Source: Prostheceraeus crozeri
Taxonomy: Eukaryota > Platyhelminthes > Polycladida > Euryleptidae
Direction: 5' to 3'
Assembly (NCBI GenBank): GCA_907163375.1
Contig: CAJQUW010008702.1
Coordinates: 117,087-181,086, forward strand
Length of the DNA stretch: 64,000 bases
The translations under genes and the position numbers were made by a program. Of the stretch, positions 17,093 to 37,584 are shown one piece after another. The stretch's first letter is position 1; every line of letters starts with the position of its first letter. Below the pieces are notes generated by a model that was given only the letters and a program-made list of their open reading frames with translations, ran no database searches and was not told where the DNA came from.

Positions 17093-17416
17093 ACAACAAA
17101 GGTCTGTCGTAGTTCATTGAATATCGAAAGAGAATGACAGCTATTAAGTGAATGCAAGACACCGACACCCTTGATTCCTCGACAGCACTCGCCTGACCTA
17201 GGAATCGAACCGAAGTCCGCGGTGGAGACGAGCTCGAACCTTCTTCACTAGGCCACGCTGACGGTTCAAAAGGAATGCGAGCGAAGGCAGAAGTCATCTC
17301 TAAGTGATATCGACAGCATATTGTCCTATTATTATTATTGACAGAACGCTAACAACGTTTACATTGTACGAGACAGCATATCAGCATGTCATACGACTAC
17401 GTCACAGTGTAGTTTG
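17093..17416 (-). repeat. tRNA-derived SINE, copy A
   Basis: Reading the minus strand, an A-box-like TGGCCTAGTGAAGAAGG is followed about 45 bp later by a perfect B box, GGTTCGATTCC. The body continues into a tail ending attcaatgaactacgacagacc. Copies B and C share the same order of blocks. Confidence 0.7.
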
Positions 17417-17548
17417 ACAACAAAGGTCTGTCGTAGTTCATTGAATATCGAAAGAGAATGACAGCTATTAAGTGGATACAAGACACCAACACCCTTGATT
17501 CCTCGACCGCACTCGCCTGACCTAGGAATCGAACCGAATTCCGCGGTG

Positions 17549-17554
17549 GAGACG
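17549..17554. repeat. Polinton target-site duplication, left (gagacg)
   Basis: The hexamer gagacg sits directly before the left inverted repeat and is repeated at 36683-36688 directly after the right one. Joining the flanks across one copy restores the SINE sequence seen in copies A and C. This proves the insertion point. Six bases is the usual Polinton duplication. Confidence 0.93.
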
Positions 17555-18016
17555 AGTAGTATATAGTGTGACATCCGGCGCGTCGCTTCGCTTCGCTTGC
17601 ACCGGATGTCACACTTTTGCGGGTATTTTCAAAAATTTACGTAGTCTATAAAGTTCAAAAATTTAGGTAGACTCCAAATTTCACGTGGGCGAAAATTTAG
17701 GTAGCGACAAATTTTCAAAAAATCAAAATTTCAAAAATTTAGGTAGTCTCCAAATTTCGAAAATTTAGGCGGTCTCAAAATATCACGTTATCTAAAAAAT
17801 ATCACGTAATCTAAAAAATATCACTTGGTCGAAAATTTAGGTACTCTAAGAATTTCACGTAGACTCAATATACCAGAAGATTGTATTCAAAATATTTATT
17901 CAAATATTTCTTTAAAAATGAATGAAACAAAAGTGGAAGAAACCGCAAAAATACATCCTTCGTTATCATATGAAATGAACAAAGAAAAGCACAAAGATAG
18001 AGTTAGGTATATGAAA
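17555..18016 (+). repeat. Polinton left terminal inverted repeat (~460 bp)
   Basis: It matches the reverse complement of about 36046-36682. The outermost part holds a hairpin, GTGTGACATCCGG (17566-17578) pairing with CCGGATGTCACAC (17602-17614), around a cttcgcttcgc loop. Inside are iterated aaatttaggtag and atatcacgtaatc units. The left copy has fewer iterated units than the right. The inner end reaches into the first codons of the gene at the right end. Confidence 0.9.
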
Positions 18017-19571: not shown

Positions 19572-20846
19572 TTAAAGCTCGAATATTTGCAATTCGTTTT
19601 GATAAAATCTGCCAGTGATTTCCTGATCATCTAAATCTTTGATTTCGTAAGTAATCGGATAAGTTTGATTTATTTTACAAACTTCAAATATTTCTTTAGT
19701 CTAATAACCAACAAAGCCTTTTTCAAATATATTCTTATACTTAAATATTCGTACCCTATCTCCAATTTTAAATTTCGGCTTATGTTTCTGTAAATTCGGA
19801 TTACTCTCATTCGAATAATTATTTTCGAATATTTTCTTTCGTATTAAATCAGGATCGTCAGAAGCATTCTTTGGAGTTTCTTCAATACCTGAATGAACTT
19901 TATTATTGTACTGATCTACAATTCCTGGTAGTATCTTCAACCATTTCTGATTTCCTTGTTCTGTAAATTTCTTGAATAATTTATTTTTTAACGTCCGATT
20001 TAATCGCTATATTACTACAGCCTTTCCAGCATTTTCTGTGGAATAAACAGTTTCAAATAGTGGCCTAACATTTCTGTTATAAAACTCAGACCCTTTGTCA
20101 ACAAACAATTTCTCTGGCTTTCTATTAGTTTCTTTAAAGATTTCTTCAAACGCATATTTAACCGACAGACCACTTTTGTTTTTTAAAGGCTTTACCCAAG
20201 CGTATCCTGGATATAAATCTATAACGGTCAATGCGTATTTACAATCAGAATCATTCGGCATATGAATAAGATCAGCGCTCCGAATATCATCTTTATTAAA
20301 TACTTTTACTTTCAATAGATATTTAGGCCTTCTATATTCTTTATGAATTTCAGACGCGTAGGTTTCAGAGTTATGAGTTTTGTCTAAACCCTGTCCGAAT
20401 AATATTTTAGCTTGTAAAGCTTTCTCAACAAACATTCTTTCAATTCTTTCTCTAAATGTAGGATTTTGAATACTATCTAATTCTTGAATCATCTTCTTAT
20501 CAGCTACATGTCTAGAAGTCATATCATCATATTCTCTGTATGCTAAATCATGTCTGTAAGCTGCTGCATCTACTCTGTTTATTGGTTCTTCACCTGGTTT
20601 TGGATTATTATTCTCATCTAGTCTTATATCTAATCGAGTTCCTGGGCCGGTATATGAATGACCAGGAAGATGTTTTTCTTTCGAATATTTACTCCAAATA
20701 AATCCAGGAAAGTTTTCTAATGTTTTTTGTATGTCACCTCCGCTATGCTGACAATTTGAGGTTTTATGTACTTTTAAGAGGTAATTCAATAAATCTAAAT
20801 TAGAAATTTTTAATTTAATTAAATTTTCGGAATTTGTAGAATACAT
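19572..20846 (-). pseudogene. PLA2-like domain fused to DDE integrase, two amber stops
   Basis: One continuous frame of about 425 codons. Residues ~45-150 form a parvovirus-type phospholipase A2-like domain: PGHSYTGPGTRLD (calcium loop), PINRVDAAAYRHDLAY (catalytic His-Asp) and a following AD.KM helix. Residues ~170 onward are a retroviral-type integrase (rve): RSADLIHM with the first Asp, VIDLYPGYAWVKP, then VDKGSEFYN with the second Asp. At 20007-20009 a TAG falls exactly where the family has the catalytic Glu. The frame then continues (RLNRTLKNK, HSGIEETP, a KIGDRVRI chromodomain-like part) to a second TAG at 19701-19703 and ends at TAA 19572-19574. Start context ctctttaaaaATG. The integrase is inactive as it stands. 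The fusion could also be two genes joined by loss of a stop. Confidence 0.85.
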
Positions 20847-20878: not shown

Positions 20879-20987
20879 CGAACTTTGTTCAGAGGCTTTA
20901 GCCGATCGGACCAAAGGTCCTCAGGTTACTAACCTATCGAACGTTGTTCAGAGGCTTTAGCCGATCGGACCAAAGATCCTGAGGTTA
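20879..20987. repeat. Tandem 60-bp intergenic repeat with GGACC-AAA-GGTCC hairpin
   Basis: Two copies, starting at 20879 and 20939, share gttcagaggctttagccgat, cggaccaaaggtcctcagg and ggttatta-type blocks. A hairpin GGACC-aaa-GGTCC sits at 20908-20920 (the second copy has one mismatch). Partial copies of gttcagaggctttagccgat recur at 24915-24935 and, inverted, at 26919-26938, always between Polinton genes. Confidence 0.75.
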
Positions 20988-21175
20988 TTACCGAATCAAA
21001 CTAGGACTTAGATATATTCCAGAACCATCATTAGTTTCTTTAATTTCAATTAAATCATCAACATTGTGGACAATATTTTTAGGAACTCGTTTTCCTTCAT
21101 CAACTAAGTTTAATTTATTAATAAAATTATCTACTACTCCTTGTCCTCTAGCAACTTTCTCTAGCTCTCTGTTAT

Positions 21176-23799
21176 TGCTTGGAATTGCTTACTTATTGGT
21201 ATTGATTTACTTACTCTCTTGCAAAAAATGCGGGTTACAGTATGTAGGTCAGACTACTCAGGCTCTACACTGCAGATTAAATGGACATCGTAATAGCATT
21301 AGTAAAGGCACTAAGAATACATTTCTAATTAATCATTTCCGTGAAGTAGGACATACTTGTAATGACATTTCTGTTCAAATTATAGATGTTATTAATGACA
21401 GTAAAGATAAAAATGATGTTGTTCGAAAACTTAATAAAAGCGAAGATTTTTATATACGCACGTTAAATACTTTGCATCCCTTAGGACTTAATGATAGAGT
21501 TTCTGGAGGTGGTTGCGTGTCAAAAGGCACTGTTGATTATGGTAGCTATTTCAACAGTCCTATCCCCAGACGCAAACGTAGTCATGGCGTTTGAAATAGG
21601 AAAAAGGTCAATAAGACCAATAATATTGATGACTCGATAGCATATTTGAAAAACTGCTTTAACGGCAGCAATCTTGCTAAGTTTTATCAAAGTCTTAGGT
21701 CTTTGAGTTACAGTACTTTGCATATTATTAACAAGAAACTCAATCATGAGTCTAGTAACTTTGCGTATTTAGTTTCTGCATATTATTACAATACAATATG
21801 TAATTCAGAGTCCAAGCAGTCTAGCAATGTAAAAACAAATATAACTTTTGAGTTCAAAAACAAAATTATGGACAAAGTTGATATCAGTAGTATTCTGCAT
21901 GACAGAAGTATTAATCGACTTGTTCCAGAACAGGTACAGGATTGTTATCCTCCGAAAACTTATTTTACATTGAATAGCCCTGTCTCTTTGAAAATCTGCA
22001 ACTATAACAAATTTTTGAAAACGCTAGATAAGTCTGATTTGCATGATATCTTAAATTCTAAGTGTAAATGTAATGATCACCCTTCTTTTGTTAATGATTA
22101 TCACAAACGCGTTTTCACAGGTGATTTGAATTTTATTAATGAACCTGAGTTTAAAGAATTGCTTGCTCTAGGAACGAAGCATCGTTTACCCAGGAAGTGT
22201 AATCATAAAAATATTATAGACAGTATCACAGTTTCGCTCGATAAGCACATAGCTAAGATGTGTAGGAAGCACAAAAGAATTTTAAGAGCTGATTATTCGG
22301 ATTGGAGAAATAAGATTTTAAAATTAGTGCGAGATAAACTATATAATAATAAGCTCAAGAACCAAAACAGTAACAATAGCAAGAATACAATGAGTAATAG
22401 TAACATTAATTCTCTTAGCAAGATTAGCAAGTTACTGCATTATTATCATGATAACTTCATTATTACTGCGGTAGATAAGGCTAATAGCAATTATGCGTTC
22501 ATTTGCAAGAAATTCTATGTTCTGGTTTTATTACAGGAACTTGGATTTGAATTGAAGACATTAACTCCTATAGGTAATAGTACATACATACCTGTTAACA
22601 TAGAGATCAATAGTTTAGTTGTAAATCATAAAGAGATCATTAGTAATTTCTTTCATACCATTTGTAATAAAGATAATCTTAAACTACCTCGATTGTATTG
22701 GATACCTAAATTGCATAAAAACCCTTACAAATTTCGCTTCATAGCAGGTGCTAAACAGTGCACTACTAAACAACTTTCGACTAAGATTAATAAAGGCCTA
22801 ACCGTTATAAGAAATTACTTTAAGGAATATTGTAACGCTATCTATAAAAATAGCGGAATTAACTGTTTTTGGAGTATAGTATCTTCGATCGAATTCCTAA
22901 ATAAGATTCAAAACATCAATATACATAACGTGCAAGTTTTTGACTTCTCCACATTGTACACTAACTTGAATCATGACGATGTTATTCATCACATTTCTGA
23001 CTTGCTAGATTTGGTGTTTAATGATTCGAATAGGAAATACTTATGCATCGGTTATGAAAAATGTTTTTTAGCTAGTAAAAAGTATCAAGGCTATAGTGTT
23101 TTTACTAAAGATAACTTTAAGGATGCTATTAAATTCATTATTCATGAAGTTTACGTCACTTTTGGTGGACTGGTTTTTCGACAGATAAAAGGTATACCGA
23201 TGGGAGGTAATTGTAGCCCTTTGCTAGCAGACCTTTTTCTTTTACACTGCGAATATATTTTCATGTCTAATCTTATGAAAAGTAAAAAGTATGGTCTAGC
23301 TAAACTTCTATCGAATACCTCTAGATATATAGACGATCTGTGTATTATTAATTATAAACATTTCGCTTCTTTAATTCCTAAAATTTATCCACCAAGTCTG
23401 GAGGCAAGTAGAAGTGGAGATAATGATAACAACATTGAATATTTAGACATTAAAATGCAAATCACTAATACAGAAGCGGTTACCTCTGTATTTCATAAGG
23501 TTGATAACTTCAATTTTCCTGTTACGCTCTTAACATTTCCTCAAAACACTATGCCTTACAAAATAGGTATCAAAGTTTTCACGGGACAGGTTTTGAGATA
23601 TATTGGCATCTGTACACATGAGAGCGATTTTATTGAAAAAATAAATCGTACCTCCACCACCCTCATTGCGAGAGGTTATAATCGCTTTGATCTTAAGCGC
23701 AGTGCTGAAAAGCAGTTAAACAGACACAGAGAGACTTTATTGAAATACGGTTATTTCTCCGCTAAGCAACTTTTGGACAACTGCCCGAACTTTATTTAA
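21176..23799 (+). CDS. Naiad endonuclease-reverse transcriptase, one in-frame TGA
   Basis: The frame runs from the truncated start through a GIY-YIG nuclease: IYLLSCKKCGLQYVGQT near 21200-21250, with the CCHH-type CKKC plus two His residues (NGHR, INHF). It then meets a single TGA at 21592-21594 and continues in the same frame for 735 more codons. The linker contains KCKCNDHP (CxC motif, near 22057-22080). RT motifs in order are AVDKANSNYAF, LYWIPKLHKNP, VFDFSTLYTNL (catalytic Asp), IKGIPMGGNCSPLLADL, RYIDDLCIIN (catalytic Asp pair) and IEYLDIKM, then a thumb with RGYNRFDLK. RT and linker have no frameshift, so it is much younger than its Polinton host. The TGA could be a nonsense mutation (likely from CGA) or, less likely, a selenocysteine codon. 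Confidence 0.85.
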
Positions 23800-24468
23800 G
23801 TTCCTTTTCCATATTTCCAGTTTAGTCAGTTCGAATCATCTCGTTGGCGTAGTCAATGTATCTGACTACATGTCCGAGATTTTTCTTTCGAGGCTGCTTT
23901 CTTTAAAGCAGGGCCCCGCTTGAGCGAGTTTGAACGTACAGGAATTAAGGGGCCGAAACGTGAATCTTGCTCAAGTTCCTGCTGATGACCTCTATTGCTT
24001 TTGTCCTCATCAACTTTATCACAGCATATATCAATTATCTGTTTTTAGTTGCACTTCATGTAACCTGTGGGAAAGCCAGATCGGTCCTTTGGAGGGATCA
24101 AATTCTTTACTTTTCATTATCTTCAGCTTCATCTTCTCACTTCGATTGAAGCATTTGTGTAACACCACACGTGGTTGACCAGTTATCCGCATTAGAAATG
24201 ACAGGTCTGTTTGTAATTGTATTTGACTGATAGCAGATTGGGATTTAGATAAGTTACAAAGTTTGAAGTATATAAGCAGACACACAAGTGTCATGTCTAT
24301 AATCACTCCTTTTTAGACGCTAATTTCATAAGTAAGTTGTTAGATTTATAATTTTGTTTAAAACGCAGTAATAAGTTATATTTTTTTTCTTCTTTCATTT
24401 TTTAGTTAGGCCTATAGTATTATTATTTTTCTTTATGATCTACCGGAGGTTAGCCTCAACCAATTTAA
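23800..24468 (+). other. Naiad 3' untranslated region
   Basis: Non-coding tail between the RT stop and the target duplication. It contains a small hairpin around cgaggctgctttctttaaagcag and the phrase ggggccgaaacgtg. A hammerhead ribozyme core could not be assembled. Short open frames here are by-products. Confidence 0.6.
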
Positions 24469-24951
24469 TTATGACGTTTTTGTTCTTCTAACGCTGCCTT
24501 CTCTGATTTATTTTTATTTACTGCTTGGACAATACCAGCTGTCCCACCTGCAACACTTCCTGCAGCTGCTATACCTCCTATTATTAGTGGAGTTAATGGG
24601 AGAATTCCACCATTCTTTTCTTCTTGTAATTGAATATTCTCTGTCATTGGTTTACTTATGTAATATTTCTTTTTGTCAATCGTAATAATTTTAGGTGTAT
24701 TTTTGTCAACAATGTTACGTAGTTTTAATTCAACAGTTTTATTATTTTTATTATTACTTTTCGCTTGCGACATTTTTAATAAAAAAATTTTAAGTTACGA
24801 AAAATTTTAATCTATTATAGTTATAAAAAAATTTTAAGTTATCAAAAATTTTAAGTTACTAAAAAATTTTAATTAACCTATCGACGAAGTCTTGGGTTCA
24901 ACCAATAGAACTTTGTTCAGAGGCTTTAGCCGATCACTTTTGTTCAGGTTA

Positions 24952-27836: not shown

Positions 27837-28426
27837 TATTTAACAATAAAACATACATATGTCATGAAAATAAATTTTTTAGATATAAATTTTTAGATGT
27901 AATAAAATTTTTAGATGTAATAAAAAAATTATTATTCCCACGCGTCATCATCATCACTTAAATTACTCTCACAGACGATTGTTTGAAATATTTCAGCTTG
28001 AATATCTTCTGCGTTATAAGTTAACATAATTTCATTTTCATCAGGTGCTTGACGTTTAAGAATATTTATTTGACCAGAAAATTTTTTTTCTTCAGTATTA
28101 TTATTTTTATCAGGAATACTAATTCCAGTTTCTAAAGATCTTTTCCATGGTTTATTAACTGTAGTCGATAATGTTTTCCCCGAATATAATAATAGAAAAT
28201 CTTCCACTTTTACTTTATCTTGTGAATATCCTTTGAATGTTTTTTTTTCACTAAGTCTCCCTTGTTCATCTACAGTAATACAATATTTTATTTTAGGAGC
28301 AATAAACATTGCAAAAATAATTCCACCATTTCCATAATGATTTTTTCCTTGACACAATGCTCCCCCAACATATCCAGCAGCATCTAATTTATTGAAGAGT
28401 TCATTAGAAATGTATATTGAATCAGT

Positions 28427-29477
28427 GTTTTTTACAATTAATTGAAAACCACAATTAAATGCGCCATCTTCTGTTTCAATGTCATAAACATATTGTGGTT
28501 TATTATTTAAATATCTTACAGTGGTGACATCTTCGGTAATATTATTTTTAACTTGACACGCACTAAAGCATAATGGTTTATCTTTTCTTTCGCTTACTAG
28601 CAAATTAATACCTACAGATGAAGCCAAATTGTATAAACCACTAAAGGTTTCTTTATTTTTCTGTGTAAAACGAATAGTTGCATATTTCCTTGTAAAAAAA
28701 GATTTCTTGTCCCCATCTGCTGCATAAAATCCAACAAAGAACCAATATCTAATATTATATTCAGCATTTAGAACATACCATGGAACACGTTTTTCTCTAA
28801 ACTGATTATAATAATTTTCAGTAAAGTATATGGCATAATTGTTTTGGATTTTGAAAATTAAGTTTGTATACACTAGATGATCTCATTGTATTATATATTT
28901 TACAATCATTGTTATAGACTTCATCAATATATGTTTTTAATTTAATTAAGATGTTAAGATCTTGGTTATTTAAAGTACAACAATATCTGACTCCTGATTC
29001 ATAATAATAGATTCCAGCAGAGCCATCTCCTAAAAAGAACCCTTCTATAAATGCTTGCTTACATCTTAAATTAGGCGGATCATTAACATAAATATCACTT
29101 ACAATTTGTTTAAATGTGATTGTATTGTCGTGTAGAAATAATTTATTATGCAGTAAATTTGTTCCTATATTTAATTCTTGTGGCTTTATTTCATTACCTA
29201 TTTCATCTAACAATGAATGATCTTCAGTAACATCTACTATTCCCATTTTAGTTCTTATTCGATAAATACTTTTATTTGTGTAATGTCTAATAATTTTTTT
29301 TACTTTACTCCATCCATTATGAGTATAAATTTCTAAATTATCAACAAATGAAATTTCTTTCATATCACCATTAATTTCAAACGGATTAATTTTATAGTTG
29401 TTTACAATACTATCTATTCTAGAAATAAATAATAAATTATTCTTTCTCAATATTACAGGCGTGTCAGCTGTTACTGA
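28427..29477 (-). other. Intein in PolB motif C, with LAGLIDADG endonuclease
   Basis: Protein-splicing element of about 350 residues between the Asp and Thr of the polymerase YTDTDS motif. Block A is SVTADTPVIL (Ser1 at 29477). Block B is VTEDHSLL (29208-29231) with the TxxH-type His. Two dodecapeptide endonuclease motifs follow, FIEGFFLGDG (29022-29051) and FFVGFYAADG (28712-28741). The terminal block is YVYDIETEDG...LIVKN (28427-28492). The last residue is Asn and the +1 extein residue is Thr. The usual penultimate His is Lys. One frameshift near 28825 lies between the two endonuclease motifs. The insertion site is the same as that of PolB inteins in archaea and large DNA viruses. Confidence 0.88.
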
Positions 29478-30380
29478 ATCTGTATAATGAATGTATTTTT
29501 CGTTGAAACCATTAATTTCTAAAATAAAGTTATTCATGATTCTTCTAGAGTGAGAAAGAATAAAAGAACCTAAGTGTGATGGCATGAATGACGTCTTCCA
29601 ATCTTTTACAATATTAGCTTTAAGAAATTCATCATCTTCCATTTCTACTTTCGCTAAATATTGTTCATCATTTAATTTTTCATAATCTTTTACTTCTTGA
29701 GAGAAATTTTCTCAATGTATTCTCATTCCATAAATGATATTTAGTGGTTATATCTTTTTGCACAGTTTTGCCATATAGCGAATTCATCAATAATTTAATT
29801 AACTCATCGCCTACAGTATTTCCTTCTGTTTTATATCTTTTTCTCAAATGGAAAAGTTTTTCAATATATTTTCGAAATGGTGACACTTGATATATTTTTT
29901 CATAAATTATACCATCAGTAATATGTAAGATTTTTCCACCACATCTAACAATTTCTTGTATGTCTACAGAAGTTAATACATCATAACATATACCATTTCT
30001 AAACCTGATTACTTTTACATGAGAATTATTATTTTGATTTTTAACTTTATCTTTAATGGGAACTGCTAGAAAAAACATATCATTCGGATATTGAAACACA
30101 GAAACACAACAGAGAATATTCCAGTTTTAGGTCTAAATGTTTGAGTATTAAATTTATATACTATTTCTCGTTCTTCTTCTTGACGAAATTTTCTAGCTGA
30201 TTCAGCTGTAGGGTATTCTGAATTTTCATCATACATAGCTGATGGATATAAAGATGTTGCATCAAAAGCCATTAGAAATTCATTTTTTTGTTCAAGTAGT
30301 TGATTTGAAATTTTCTTACAAATTTCAGTTTTATTTCCTAAATCTCGATACTTTTTCATTAAATCTATTAAATTACTTGC

Positions 30381-30411
30381 AGGGGACAAAGTCCCCCCAG
30401 CGTAGCGACCA
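30381..30411. repeat. GC-rich hairpin embedded in PolB
   Basis: GGGGAC (30382-30387), loop aaa, GTCCCC (30391-30396), then cagcgtagcgacc. It is translated in frame as PGRYAGGTLSPA, which stands out in composition from the AT-rich gene around it. Related hairpins are at 20908-20920 and 32905-32931. Confidence 0.6.
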
Positions 30412-32513
30412 GGTAAATACTGTTTTATTATTGATAACAAGATGTTACAAAATGGCGATATGTACTTTCTTATATTTGCTGAAACTCTTCCACCTTTAAC
30501 AGATTTTCTAATATAATTTCTAGCCCATAAATCTATATGAGAATGAATATTTATACTGTGATTTTGTACGCTTTTCATCCAACCGTTAAATGTTAAAGCA
30601 GAGGATGTCAAATTAGTAGTCATATCTTCACCAACTAAATCTTGCATAACATTATTATATTTGTAGATACAAAAAGCTAAAGAAAGAATATCGTTAACTA
30701 AATATGGTCTCCATTCATTTTCTTTTTCTTTATAATTTTCATGTGTTATGTCTCCAATTTCATAATTTAATTTACACACATTTGTCGGAATTTTAAAATT
30801 CTCACACCATTTAGAAAGACTTGTTTTTGCATGTTGATAACTACATTTCATCATAATAGTTTGAAGTGCTAATTTACCTGAAGGTGAATTTTTTTCATAT
30901 TGTTTTTAAATCTAAAAGATTTTTGAATATATCTACTAACACATTCAGTTGTATAAGGATTTTTTAATGAAGCAGTTAATATTCCTCTTGAAGTTTTAAG
31001 AGGTGGTTTGGATAATTTGAAATTAGCTTTTATCGGAAAATAGGAATCAAAACCTGATGAATTGTGAGCTATTAAAGTTACTTTCGAATAATTAAATTTT
31101 CCAAGAGTTTTAAAAAATTGATGGATCGGACATGCGTCCTCTGGGTTTCCCCCGATTGGACATTCATCATCCTCAGTTCTCGTAAATATTTTCACACAAT
31201 TTTGAAGTTTATTAAATTCTAATTCAGTTAAATTATTATACTCATTAATTTGTTTTTTAAGTTTTTTAATTTCATCTTCATCTTTTGATCGTTTAATTTT
31301 AATCATATCACTTAACAAACGTGTTTCTAATTCTTTCAATCTTTGTTTCGGTAAGAAACATAAAAATTTATTAAAATTAATAGCTCCTACAGCATAAGGA
31401 ATAGGATGAGCTGTTGAACAGTTAGGATCAGGAAAAGTTTCGAGATCCCAAATGTATGTTGAACTATATTCAATTTTTTTCTTTGTTATGATTTTATATG
31501 GACGCGTTGTTAGATTTTCATCAGTAACTGTTTTATATATGGGTTTAAAATTATTTTCAATTTCTCTAATAGCTTTTAATTTTTTTGAGATTTATTAATT
31601 AAACAATAGTGTCCAATTGTTGAAGCTTCGTGAAAATAATTGTAATAAACATAATTATGAAACATTTCAATTCCTCTAGGATTTAAATGACGATTGGCAG
31701 GACTATAATATTGAACACATTCACCGAAATATTTATTGAATTGAGAAATTTTGCAGTTTGACATTACTCCTGTTCTAGATGTGGCTTTCTCTTTATATAA
31801 AAATTATTAAACATTTCTTTCATCATTTCTCCTTGTTCTTCATTAAAACCTCGTAAAACATTATAACATTTAATAAAACAAAAATCTTCAGAAGGAATAT
31901 AACAATATATTCACCGAAATATTCTTTGATTCTATATTTCATATTAATACCTGCACCTCTATGCGATCTTTGTACTATCTTCATTCCAAAATCTTCATAT
32001 CTAACATTACCTGTAAAAATCCATTCGTTAGCGTTAGATTTCTCTTGCAGATTAGAAAACCATGTTTCAAATGAATTTTTATTATAGAACGTTACGCAAA
32101 AATTTTGAATTATATTTTCCTGGTCCTTAACAACTTTTCCAAGTAAATTAATAATTTTACCATTTGCTAAAATTTTCCGCATATCATTTACTATATTAAT
32201 AAAAGATACATTTTCATATTTAATTTCATTTGGATTAAATAAATTACATAAATCATCACCAAGTTCATCCTTAATTCTATCACCAAAAAAGATATCAGTA
32301 ATAGGAGTTTCTAATATTTCTTTTGTTCCACGTTTCTGTTTTTTAATACTACGTTTAATATTACGTTTCTGTTTTTTAATACGCCTACTACGTTTACTAT
32401 GTTTAATTTGTGCATCAAACTCAGCAATTTGTTTCTTGATCAATTCATCAATCCTAGACGTTTGTCCGAGAGACATTTCACGATTCATATTTTTTAAAAG
32501 AAAAAATGTATTT

Positions 32514-35504: not shown

Positions 35505-36181
35505 TTAAGTTTTGTTTAATAAAGTTTTGTTTAATAAAGTTTTTAGTTCTTCTAAAAAAATTTTATCATTTTCTTCATTAGAAATTTTACCACCACTAAA
35601 AGTTTTACCATCACTAGAATTTTTATCATCAATTTTTTCGGTCTTTAAATGAAATGATATTTTATTAGCTTCATTAGCTATTTGATCAAATTTTTCAATC
35701 TCATCTAACGTAATAACATTATCATCACAGACTCTTTGAAAATAATAATGTAGTTTATCATAGACTTCTTTAATATGTGAATGTTTAGTTTTTAATGATT
35801 TTCGTTTCTTAGTAATTAAAGATTTGTCTAACATTGTAACAAGTGAAGTTGTAAAAACACCCTACCTGTTAAAGCAGTAGCAACTACTGGAATTACTAAA
35901 ACACCTGAAGATATAACAATTGTTAAAGCACCTAAACTTGTTGTTAAGAATATGCCAATTCCTTGTGTTACATTCTTAACTTTAGACCATCTCTTTCTTA
36001 ATTTTTTATAATGTTCTAATCTTAATAATAATTGAGATTCTTTATCTTTCATATACATAACTCTATCTTTGTGCTTTTCTTTGCTCATTTCATATGATAA
36101 CGAAGGATATATTTTTGAGGTTTCTTCCATTTTCGTCGTCGCCGTTGCCGTTGAGGTTTCTTCCACTTTTGTTTCATCCAT
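35505..36181 (-). pseudogene. Polinton membrane/coiled-coil protein at the right end, frameshifted
   Basis: The start at 36181 (tctttaaaaATG) lies inside the right inverted repeat. The N-terminal part is Glu/Thr-rich with an imperfect internal duplication (KVEETST and KMEETSK). Then comes HYKKLRKRWSKVKNVTQGIG, followed by two hydrophobic stretches (IGIFLTTSLGALTIV, VLVIPVVATAL). A single-base shift near 35860, in a T5 run, joins it to a second block with LHYYFQRVCDDNVITLDEIE, ending at 35505 with a repeated LLNKT. A membrane-associated virion protein is plausible. The N-terminus is duplicated in the left TIR. Confidence 0.6.
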
Positions 36182-36682
36182 TTTTAAAGAAATATTTTGA
36201 ATAAATATTTTGAATACAATCTTCTGGTATATTGAGTCTACGTGAAATTCTTAGAGTACCTAAATTTTCGACCACGTGATATTTTTTAGATTACGTGATA
36301 TTTTTTAGATTACGTGATATTTTGTGACAACTTAAATTTTCGTCCACGTGATATTTTTCGACTGCCTAAATTTTCGATTACGTGATATTTTGAGACAACT
36401 TAAATTTTCGATTACGTGATATTTTGAGACAACTTAAATTTTCGATTATGTGATATCTTGAGACCGCCTAAATTTTCGAAATTTGGAGACTACCTAAATT
36501 TTTGAAATTTTGATTTTTTGAAAATTTGTCACTACCTAAGTTTTCGCCCACGTGAAATTTGGAGTCTACCTAAATTTTTGAACTTTATAGACTACGTAAA
36601 TTTTTGAAAAAACCCGCAAAAGTGTGACATCCGGTGCAAGCGAAGCGAAGCGACGCGCCGGATGTCACACTATATAACTACT
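36046..36682 (-). repeat. Polinton right terminal inverted repeat (~640 bp)
   Basis: Counterpart of 17555-18016, with the same terminal hairpin (36622-36634 with 36658-36670). It has an expanded array of atatcacgtaatcgaaaat and ttaagttgtctcaaa units, which explains its extra length of roughly 170 bp. It extends into the 5' end of the 35505-36181 gene. Confidence 0.88.
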
Positions 36683-36904
36683 GAGACGAGCTCGAACCTT
36701 CTTCACTGGGCCACGCTGACGGTTCAAAAGGAATGCGAGTGAAGGCAGAAGTCATCTCTAAGTGATATCGACAGCATATTGTCCTATCATTATTATTGAC
36801 AGAACGCTAACAACGTTCATATTGTAGCGAGACAGTAAATCAGCATGTCATACGACTACGTCACAGTGTAGTTTGACAACAAAGATCTGTCGTAGTTCAT
36901 TGAA

Positions 36905-37144
36905 TACACTGTTAGCGTTCTGTCAATAATAATAATGGGACAATAGGCTGTCAATATCACTTAGAGATGACTTCTGCCTTCACTCGCATTCCTTTCGAAC
37001 CGTCAGCGTGGCCTAGTGAAGAAGGTTCGAGCTCGTCTCCACCGCGGACTTCGGTTCGATTCCTAGGTCAGGCGAGTGCTGTCGAGGAATCAAGGGTTTT
37101 GGTGTTTTGTATTCACTTAATAGCTGTCATTCTCTTTCGATATT
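36905..37144 (+). repeat. tRNA-derived SINE, copy C (inverted)
   Basis: Same unit as copies A and B but on the plus strand: A box region near 37009-37026 (tggcctagtgaagaagg) and B box ggttcgattcc near 37052-37063. Its junction with copy B's remnant (36888-36904) is head to head. A foldback is formed around acagaacgctaac and gttagcgttctgt. The open frame here is a by-product. Confidence 0.7.
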
Positions 37145-37584
37145 CAAAGAATCATACGTTGAGCAAAATTCAAGCAAAATTCAAGCCAAATGTGCATCTT
37201 GTTAAAGTCAGAGCATATTGGTGCGTTATATTTGAAGTTATGTGGACATGAATATAAATTACCAGTAATTTTCAAACACTATTCGGTTGTTATGCCCTAT
37301 TAGCAACAAACAAGTGTTTTAAGCAGAAACACCAGGAAATAGGATTGTGTCTTGCAACTTTGCCTTCTGTCCTTTGTTATTCGTGTTGCCGATTGATTAT
37401 ATATCTACGGTAGATACTCCAGAATGGAAGTGTCATACCTATAGATACGTCAAACTGTAGTGCACTGCGTCAGTGGTTTATGCTGTGTCAGTGGTTGCTA
37501 ATACATCAATTCGGCCGTGTGCTGTGAATTTGCCTGCATTTTTGCCATCTTTCGTCGTGCGAATATTAATTACCAGAAGACATA

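Follow-up and report, generated by a model that had tools for sequence, protein, structure and literature searches.

The 64,000 nucleotides of Prostheceraeus crozeri DNA analysed here (hereafter, the window) contain a Polinton of about 20.0 kb, bounded by approximate terminal inverted repeats at 17113..18016 on the plus strand and 36047..37151 on the minus strand (longest arms 93–97% complementary). Polinton/Maverick elements are characterised by long terminal inverted repeats and a length of about 15–20 kb or more; the window copy also holds a nested insertion. Its family B DNA polymerase (PolB) gene lies on the minus strand, with the upstream part (29680..32488) distributed over pieces in differing frames (29680–30099, 30066–30854, 30869–31339, and 31823–32488) that agree in order and content with the open frame of another genomic copy, L069. 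Two of these pieces match the PF03175 profile (organellar and viral type B polymerases; 59.6 and 50.5 bits), and the polymerase of an unbroken copy reaches 101.3 bits with the same profile. Based on membership of this family, the Polinton PolB is probably protein-primed. An integrase-like ORF was found at 20007..20846 on the minus strand (rve: 24.2 bits, below the cut-off of 32.6), and its N-terminal part carries a phospholipase-A2-like domain (PF08398: 45 bits, above the cut-off). Among the other window ORFs scanned, there was no convincing profile match to capsid, ATPase, or protease genes; the copy is decayed. Inside the Polinton but on the opposite strand, the region 20983–23799 (plus) comprises a GIY-YIG ORF (25.7 bits; cut-off 22.6) followed by a 717-aa ORF with no Pfam match, an arrangement that, as we read it, resembles a nested Penelope-like retroelement. 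A small ORF at 24465–24773 (minus) weakly resembles adenovirus core protein X (15.7 bits; cut-off 25, not reached), and transposon-like ORFs were recognised by eye in the window.

The catalytic motif C of the polymerase is split on the minus strand by an insert at 28427..29477. The sequence runs from HYTD into SVTADTPVILRKN at the start of the insert, and from YVYDIETEDGAFNCGFQLIVKN at its end into TDSIYIS; in short form, the interruption reads HYTD, SVTADTPVIL to FQLIVKN, TDSIY. The end of the N-extein, up to YTD, occupies 29478..29642, and the C-extein, starting with TDSIYIS, occupies 27932..28426 (both minus strand). Within the 1051-nt insert, Ser1 starts at 29477 and the final Asn codon stops at 28427. 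A frameshift in the endonuclease half divides it into two pieces (29477–28836 and 28852–28427), and unbroken homologues are present elsewhere in the genome. The N-terminal piece (P0001; 28836..29477, minus) contains the splicing half and the first endonuclease motif. Its features are the segment we take to be block A (SVTADTPVILRKN; 29439..29477, minus) with the nucleophile Ser1 (45 of 45 open 350-aa copies), the presumed block B (VDVTEDHSLL; 29208..29237, minus) with its T-x-x-H (Thr84 in 44 and His87 in 45 of the 45 open copies), and LAGLIDADG motif 1 (AFIEGFFLGDG; 29022..29054, minus; Asp151 in 45/45). The C-terminal piece (P0002; 28427..28852, minus) contains LAGLIDADG motif 2 (WFFVGFYAADG; 28712..28744, minus; Asp254 in 43/45) and the C-terminal splicing blocks (YVYDIETEDGAFNCGFQLIVKN; 28427..28492, minus), of which the last residue is Asn (Asn350 in 42/45). 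With its intein frameshifted and the surrounding PolB in several frames, the copy in the window is dead. A preliminary description of the window had placed an intein at 28427..29477, and these coordinates are right, on the minus strand, which it left unstated. All the motifs that it named (YTD before, TDS after, SVTADTPVIL, VTEDHSLL, two LAGLIDADG-type motifs, and a terminal Asn before Thr) were read directly. Its insert of about 350 residues agrees with the unbroken copies (350–352 residues), and it overlooked the brokenness of the window copy as well as the high copy number and polymorphism in the genome.

Profile searches found TIGR01445 (intein_Nterm) at 34.1 bits on the window's own N piece, with a further score of 33.8 (cut-off 24.5), whereas Intein_splicing reached 19.2 bits, below its cut-off. 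On the C piece, LAGLIDADG_3 (21.7 bits; cut-off 22.5) and Hom_end (17.7 bits; cut-off 21.1) both remained below threshold. With an unbroken intein, LAGLIDADG_3 scored 35.8 bits over two stretches (cut-off 22.5) and Hom_end was at its cut-off (21.1 bits). The profile check that had been proposed was therefore positive for TIGR01445 and LAGLIDADG_3 but not for Intein_splicing, which stayed under its cut-off even on the unbroken copy (29.9 bits; cut-off 35.8). The AlphaFold model of the unbroken L002 intein has a pLDDT of 91.6 and a pTM of 0.91, and its top PDB fold is the TliVMA intein (E 4.4e-17), with PhoVMA, PI-PkoII, PI-PfuI, PI-SceI, and then I-DmoI also matched. Taken with the intein_Nterm and LAGLIDADG_3 scores, the model and its PDB folds bear out the original idea that motif C of a Polinton-type PolB holds an intein with a LAGLIDADG endonuclease, and the predicted architecture, an intein splicing domain with a nested two-motif LAGLIDADG homing endonuclease, is well supported. 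The insert has the features of a class 1 intein (block A nucleophile, block B T-x-x-H, C-terminal Asn with Thr+1, and a predicted Hint fold), and its insertion between YTD and TDS of a family B polymerase identifies it as a pol-c allele. The penultimate residue is Lys in most copies, not His. A penultimate His is usual in inteins but not universal, and among 136 intein relatives this residue was Lys in 106 and His in 14.

Overall, we estimate a probability of about 90% that the window contains a broken, full-length, class-1-type LAGLIDADG intein in motif C of a high-copy, protein-primed Polinton PolB, with splicing and homing predicted. It is extremely improbable that the insert is another kind of domain, such as a Hedgehog-type Hint domain, a free endonuclease fusion, or an unrelated insertion, although PMC11071308 reports polinton PolBs that have acquired endonuclease domains by insertion. 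The exact boundaries (Ser1 to Asn, followed by Thr+1), the intein_Nterm score above the cut-off, the nested endonuclease, and an exact empty allele, described below, rule out a Hedgehog-type or unrelated insertion.

Copies of the intein were searched for in the 2.05-Gb genome (14165 contigs). Using the window N piece as a query, all 150 scored copies (959 candidates) matched, with 89–95% identity excluding the window's own. From these best 150 of 959 candidates, 68 copies were examined, comprising eight loci that include the window's own and 60 more. Of the 68, 42 encode a full-length intein in an open frame, together with Ser1, the C-terminal Asn, and Thr+1 (40 of 350 residues, the others of 351 and 352), a proportion that describes the best matches to the window and is no estimate for the whole genome. 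The remaining 26 were open with an altered splice residue (5 copies), frameshifted (13), or interrupted by stops (8). A single open frame of 1513–1558 aa surrounds the match in seven of the 150 scored copies, and in the three of these that were read (L069, L070, and L071) PolB and intein stand together in one frame. Two copies, L005 and L008, carry a short tandem-repeat insertion in the N-extein, upstream of the intein (translated as RRSVAAQTVG in one frame of the strand shown). Frameshifts such as those of the window copy might be expected from an assembly artefact, contamination, or a free virus mistaken for chromosomal copies. This explanation is very improbable, however, because the copies differ in sequence and are spread over many contigs (as long as 1.47 Mb in the fetched set), and the window copy sits within a contig of 181 kb, flanked by long inverted repeats. 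Contamination was likewise rejected.

Intein-free polymerases surround the family. A protein search with the N-extein returned 102 relatives (nearest named: the limpet Lottia gigantea and the flatworm Macrostomum lignano), among which 74 had an uninterrupted motif, 28 had no recognisable motif, and none had the intein. Together with the size of the genome and the transposon-like ORFs of the window, the named relatives are indirect signs of an animal host. One of the 102, the metagenome protein P0219 (1168 residues), is intein-free with an uninterrupted YTDTDS, and it shares 96.9% N-extein and 97.6% C-extein identity with the window family. When a 189-residue stretch of P0219 was compared to the same genome, all 150 scored copies (4301 candidates) were intein-free, 149 at 100% identity and one at 99%. 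Hence, the intein-free alleles that the preliminary description suggested looking for exist, with the motif uninterrupted, in P0219 and in the same genome. These intein-free Polinton copies constitute a very large, near-identical family, apparently the product of a recent burst, and dozens of them have open polymerase frames of about 1200 aa. Counting junctions in the genomic DNA with up to 2 mismatches in 26 bases, by which older copies of both types may be missed, we found 1449 empty sites (753 + 696) versus 584 intein-bearing sites (282 + 302), and a reversed control pattern gave 0 matches for either type. The commonest intein-bearing type on the N side of the junction (44 of 67 copies) is identical to the empty copies read for 24 bp, and the commonest type on the C side (25 of 67 copies) is identical to them for 14 bp. 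Given this shared DNA beside the junction, the empty copies appear to be open targets. An endonuclease at work in the germ line would, however, be expected to have filled many of the 1449 empty sites or to have cut them with lethal effect, and the existence of so many such sites counts against its activity.

To compare the histories of intein and exteins, we used trees and divergence tables. The extein trees contain 64–65 intein-bearing copies (L012 was skipped in the extein sets; misaligned rows were removed, namely L013, L040, and L067 for the N-extein trees and L041 and L068 for the C-extein trees) and 24 empty copies (10 near-identical ones and 14 of the 16 exact matches listed first, the misaligned L143 and L146 being left out). 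The divergence tables omit L012, L013, L040, L067, L041, and L068, which leaves 57 main copies. Four intein-bearing copies of a divergent subfamily (L020, L027, L030, and L035) differ from these main copies by 12.8–13.5% in the N-extein and 13.8–14.6% in the C-extein but by only 3.7–4.8% in the intein; the corresponding values within the main set are 3.2, 3.3, and 3.8%. Third-position divergence between the four subfamily copies and the main copies was 0.199 in the N-extein, 0.052 in the intein, and 0.157 in the C-extein, compared to 0.048, 0.041, and 0.046 among the main copies. On the N side, the third-position values increased from 0.116 in the 150 nt beside the junction to 0.242 at 450–900 nt. 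The C-side third-position profile is flat (0.158, 0.139, 0.173), although all positions combined do rise, and single 75-nt windows are irregular. Because the intein is less diverged than the flanking PolB in this subfamily and evolves at a similar rate elsewhere, the pattern is consistent with homing accompanied by co-conversion, or with recombination focused on the insert. Since the four copies are related to one another, a single event may lie behind the mosaic pattern. In L064, the intein is 8.4% and the exteins are 13–17% off the main copies, which reflects either an older exchange or co-inheritance.

These mosaic copies might have arisen without any endonuclease, by ordinary recombination among the Polinton copies or by switching of templates, with a real intein that is no longer mobile. 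High-copy, virus-like elements do recombine, the flat C-side profile is in keeping with such a process, and two empty copies point the same way: L130 looks mosaic, with DNA of the intein-bearing type on the C side of the junction, and L132 groups with the other empty copies only in the N-extein tree, the C-extein tree placing it apart from them. We nevertheless regard this explanation as rather unlikely, given that the low-divergence tract coincides with the intein, that N-side divergence grows with distance, and that the acidic LAGLIDADG residues are kept in 45 and 43 of the 45 open copies. As a tentative alternative, with a chance somewhat below even, the intein would be mobile in this animal genome now, or would have been until recently, with the endonuclease converting empty PolB genes, probably during element replication, and the empty copies amplifying again.

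A further question is whether the empty copies were never invaded or are recent, precise intein losses, overwritten by an intein-free template and then amplified. There are 7 changes between empty and filled on the N-extein tree and 3 on the C-extein tree, and on each tree at least 2 of them are made unavoidable by starred branches; with the misaligned L143 and L146 included, the numbers are 10 and 3, of which 3 (N-extein) and 2 (C-extein) are forced. In both trees, the empty copy L140 has L064, which carries the intein, as its sister (97 and 100, both starred), their N-exteins being 0.4% apart, and L140 sits in the divergent subfamily, in which the other sampled members all have the intein. 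Recent loss gains from these forced changes, from the nesting of empty copies in the sampled intein-bearing diversity (a 20-row clade holds 10 intein-bearing copies; 96, starred), and from the small N-extein difference (0.6%) among the 10 near-identical empty copies. Conversely, homologues lacking the intein are found all around the family (74 of 102 uninterrupted and 0 of 102 with the intein), which implies that the older state was empty, and empty copies of early origin may have escaped sampling. On balance, precise loss followed by amplification has only slightly less than an even chance of being correct.

Constraint on the intein was compared to that on its host. Among 45 open copies, dN/dS was 0.61 in the intein, compared to 0.21–0.24 in the nearby exteins (35 and 36 copies; 50 and 80 codons). 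Variants common to at least three copies were 20 synonymous versus 44 nonsynonymous in the intein, and 12 versus 4 and 3 versus 0 in the exteins. The dN/dS of 0.61 and the 20:44 ratio of shared variants indicate that recent constraint on the intein is weak, and this weakens the claim that selection currently keeps it intact. In this family, constraint on the intein is thus looser than on the polymerase, as would be compatible with a selfish insert.

With respect to other inteins, the closest relatives in long proteins, among the best 120 of 1275, reside in the PF03175 polymerases P0099 (54–55% identity), P0100 (46–49%), and P0102 (46%). In this set, PF00136 is present in all except P0099, P0100, P0102, and P0139, and the PF00136 polymerases, one of which belongs to Mimiviridae sp. 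ChoanoV1, are intermixed with and below the PF03175 ones. Among shorter proteins, P0005–P0007 are the top relatives (44–45%). Where both intein ends were recognisable (n = 136), TDS follows the intein in 123 relatives and YGD precedes it in 111. A set of PF00136 proteins (P0101, P0103, P0105–P0107, P0110, P0113, P0119, P0129, and P0138) has 659–1211 residues from the first intein start to the last end; in this set the span starts after residue N, not YGD, as if there were two inteins at two polymerase sites. An IMG/VR alignment added 51 distant loci (24–47% identity over the best segment, many over the splicing half only), and IMG/VR scans with single inteins or PolBs gave no confirmed relatives.

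Midpoint-rooted trees were built from relatives of 325–385 residues (105 in a first quick tree and 47 in a second). In the 47-row tree, in which the bootstrap was not quite settled, eight inteins of protein-primed PolBs form one group (100/100) apart from the giant-virus-type inteins, and the window's intein family pairs with P0099 (100/98). The 105-row quick tree agrees, with support of 99 for the protein-primed group and 97 for the window's family with P0099. P0139, which has no PF03175 match, was placed in the protein-primed group by the similarity of its extein to that of P0100, and the fragments P0005–P0007 were placed there by their flanks. The P0099 polymerase, which we assume resembles the common animal Polinton polymerase, has an intein 55% identical over 346 residues, yet its N-extein aligns locally with that of the window family over just 122 residues (score 57). 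For P0100 versus the window family, the N-extein local score was only 69, whereas P0100, P0102, and P0139 score 783–988 among themselves with an intein identity of 47–50%. Such close inteins in barely alignable polymerases suggest that the intein lineage probably crossed between divergent protein-primed polymerases. Placement in a tree, as the preliminary description had advised, thus puts the window's intein inside the protein-primed PolB group; the proposed link to the PolB inteins found in large DNA viruses holds insofar as 116 of the best 120 of 1275 relatives, ChoanoV1 included, are PF00136 polymerases, but the Polinton-type inteins form a group of their own. The clusters P0005, P0006, and P0102 contain 41, 55, and 136 member sequences, respectively, with longest contigs of 72–657 kb, and are perhaps other high-copy, intein-bearing polinton families in eukaryote genomes.

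Among known systems, the Mimivirus PolB intein of 351 residues is inserted at pol-c, between YGD and TDS (available text of PMC549080). The Polinton intein is similar in its position between YxD and TDS, its Ser1, C-terminal Asn, and Thr+1, its LAGLIDADG endonuclease, and its length (350 versus 351 residues), but the Mimivirus host is a delta-like PolB, whereas the Polinton intein resides in a protein-primed PF03175 PolB at high copy in a 2-Gb genome. Inteins of PF00136 PolBs, for example ChoanoV1 P0126 (41%), occupy the same junction in most rows with ends read; they show 28–44% identity among the rows listed and fall outside the Polinton-type group (100/100). The archaeal PI-PkoII, PI-PfuI, and TliVMA and the yeast VMA1 intein PI-SceI resemble the Polinton intein in fold and layout but share 10–19% identity with it and belong to other hosts or host genes. 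Another known case is that of the polinton pPolBs of PMC11071308, which, in the part of that paper available (citing Jeong et al. 2023), contain diverse homing endonuclease domains, suggested there to represent intein invasions. Such insertions are shared with the window family, whereas splicing blocks and empty sites within one genome are not described in that part. The accessible text of PMC12220804, PMC3671162, and PMC5718144 mentions no inteins within Polinton PolB, and in the literature searched, made up mostly of papers outside subscription, no nuclear Polinton family was described as having a polymorphic intein.

As predicted, a precursor polymerase from an unbroken copy would undergo an acyl shift at Ser1, transfer to Thr+1, and cyclisation of Asn350, so that the intein would be removed and YTDTDS left; in an unspliced polymerase, the catalytic motif would stay interrupted. 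The endonuclease would cut an intein-free polymerase gene at the same motif, and repair would then copy the intein in. We infer splicing and cleavage, and also that the intein was moved by homing rather than by another kind of recombination.

For an animal genome, the family would be a large, partly unbroken exception to the absence of inteins from metazoan genomes stated in the accessible part of a 2018 survey (PMC5784728). The approximately 2000 closely related loci, with and without the intein, provide a built-in control, by which intein gain, loss, and homing become measurable within one genome. They also raise the question of how an endonuclease can be tolerated in a genome that contains its predicted target about 1449 times. 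If the intein is indeed mobile, these chromosomal copies would represent a natural balance of drive and loss, and the intein would be a member of a Polinton-specific lineage that jumped between deeply divergent protein-primed polymerases. More broadly, the results suggest that a separate intein lineage, related to the one in giant viruses, belongs to the protein-primed polymerases of virus-like elements.
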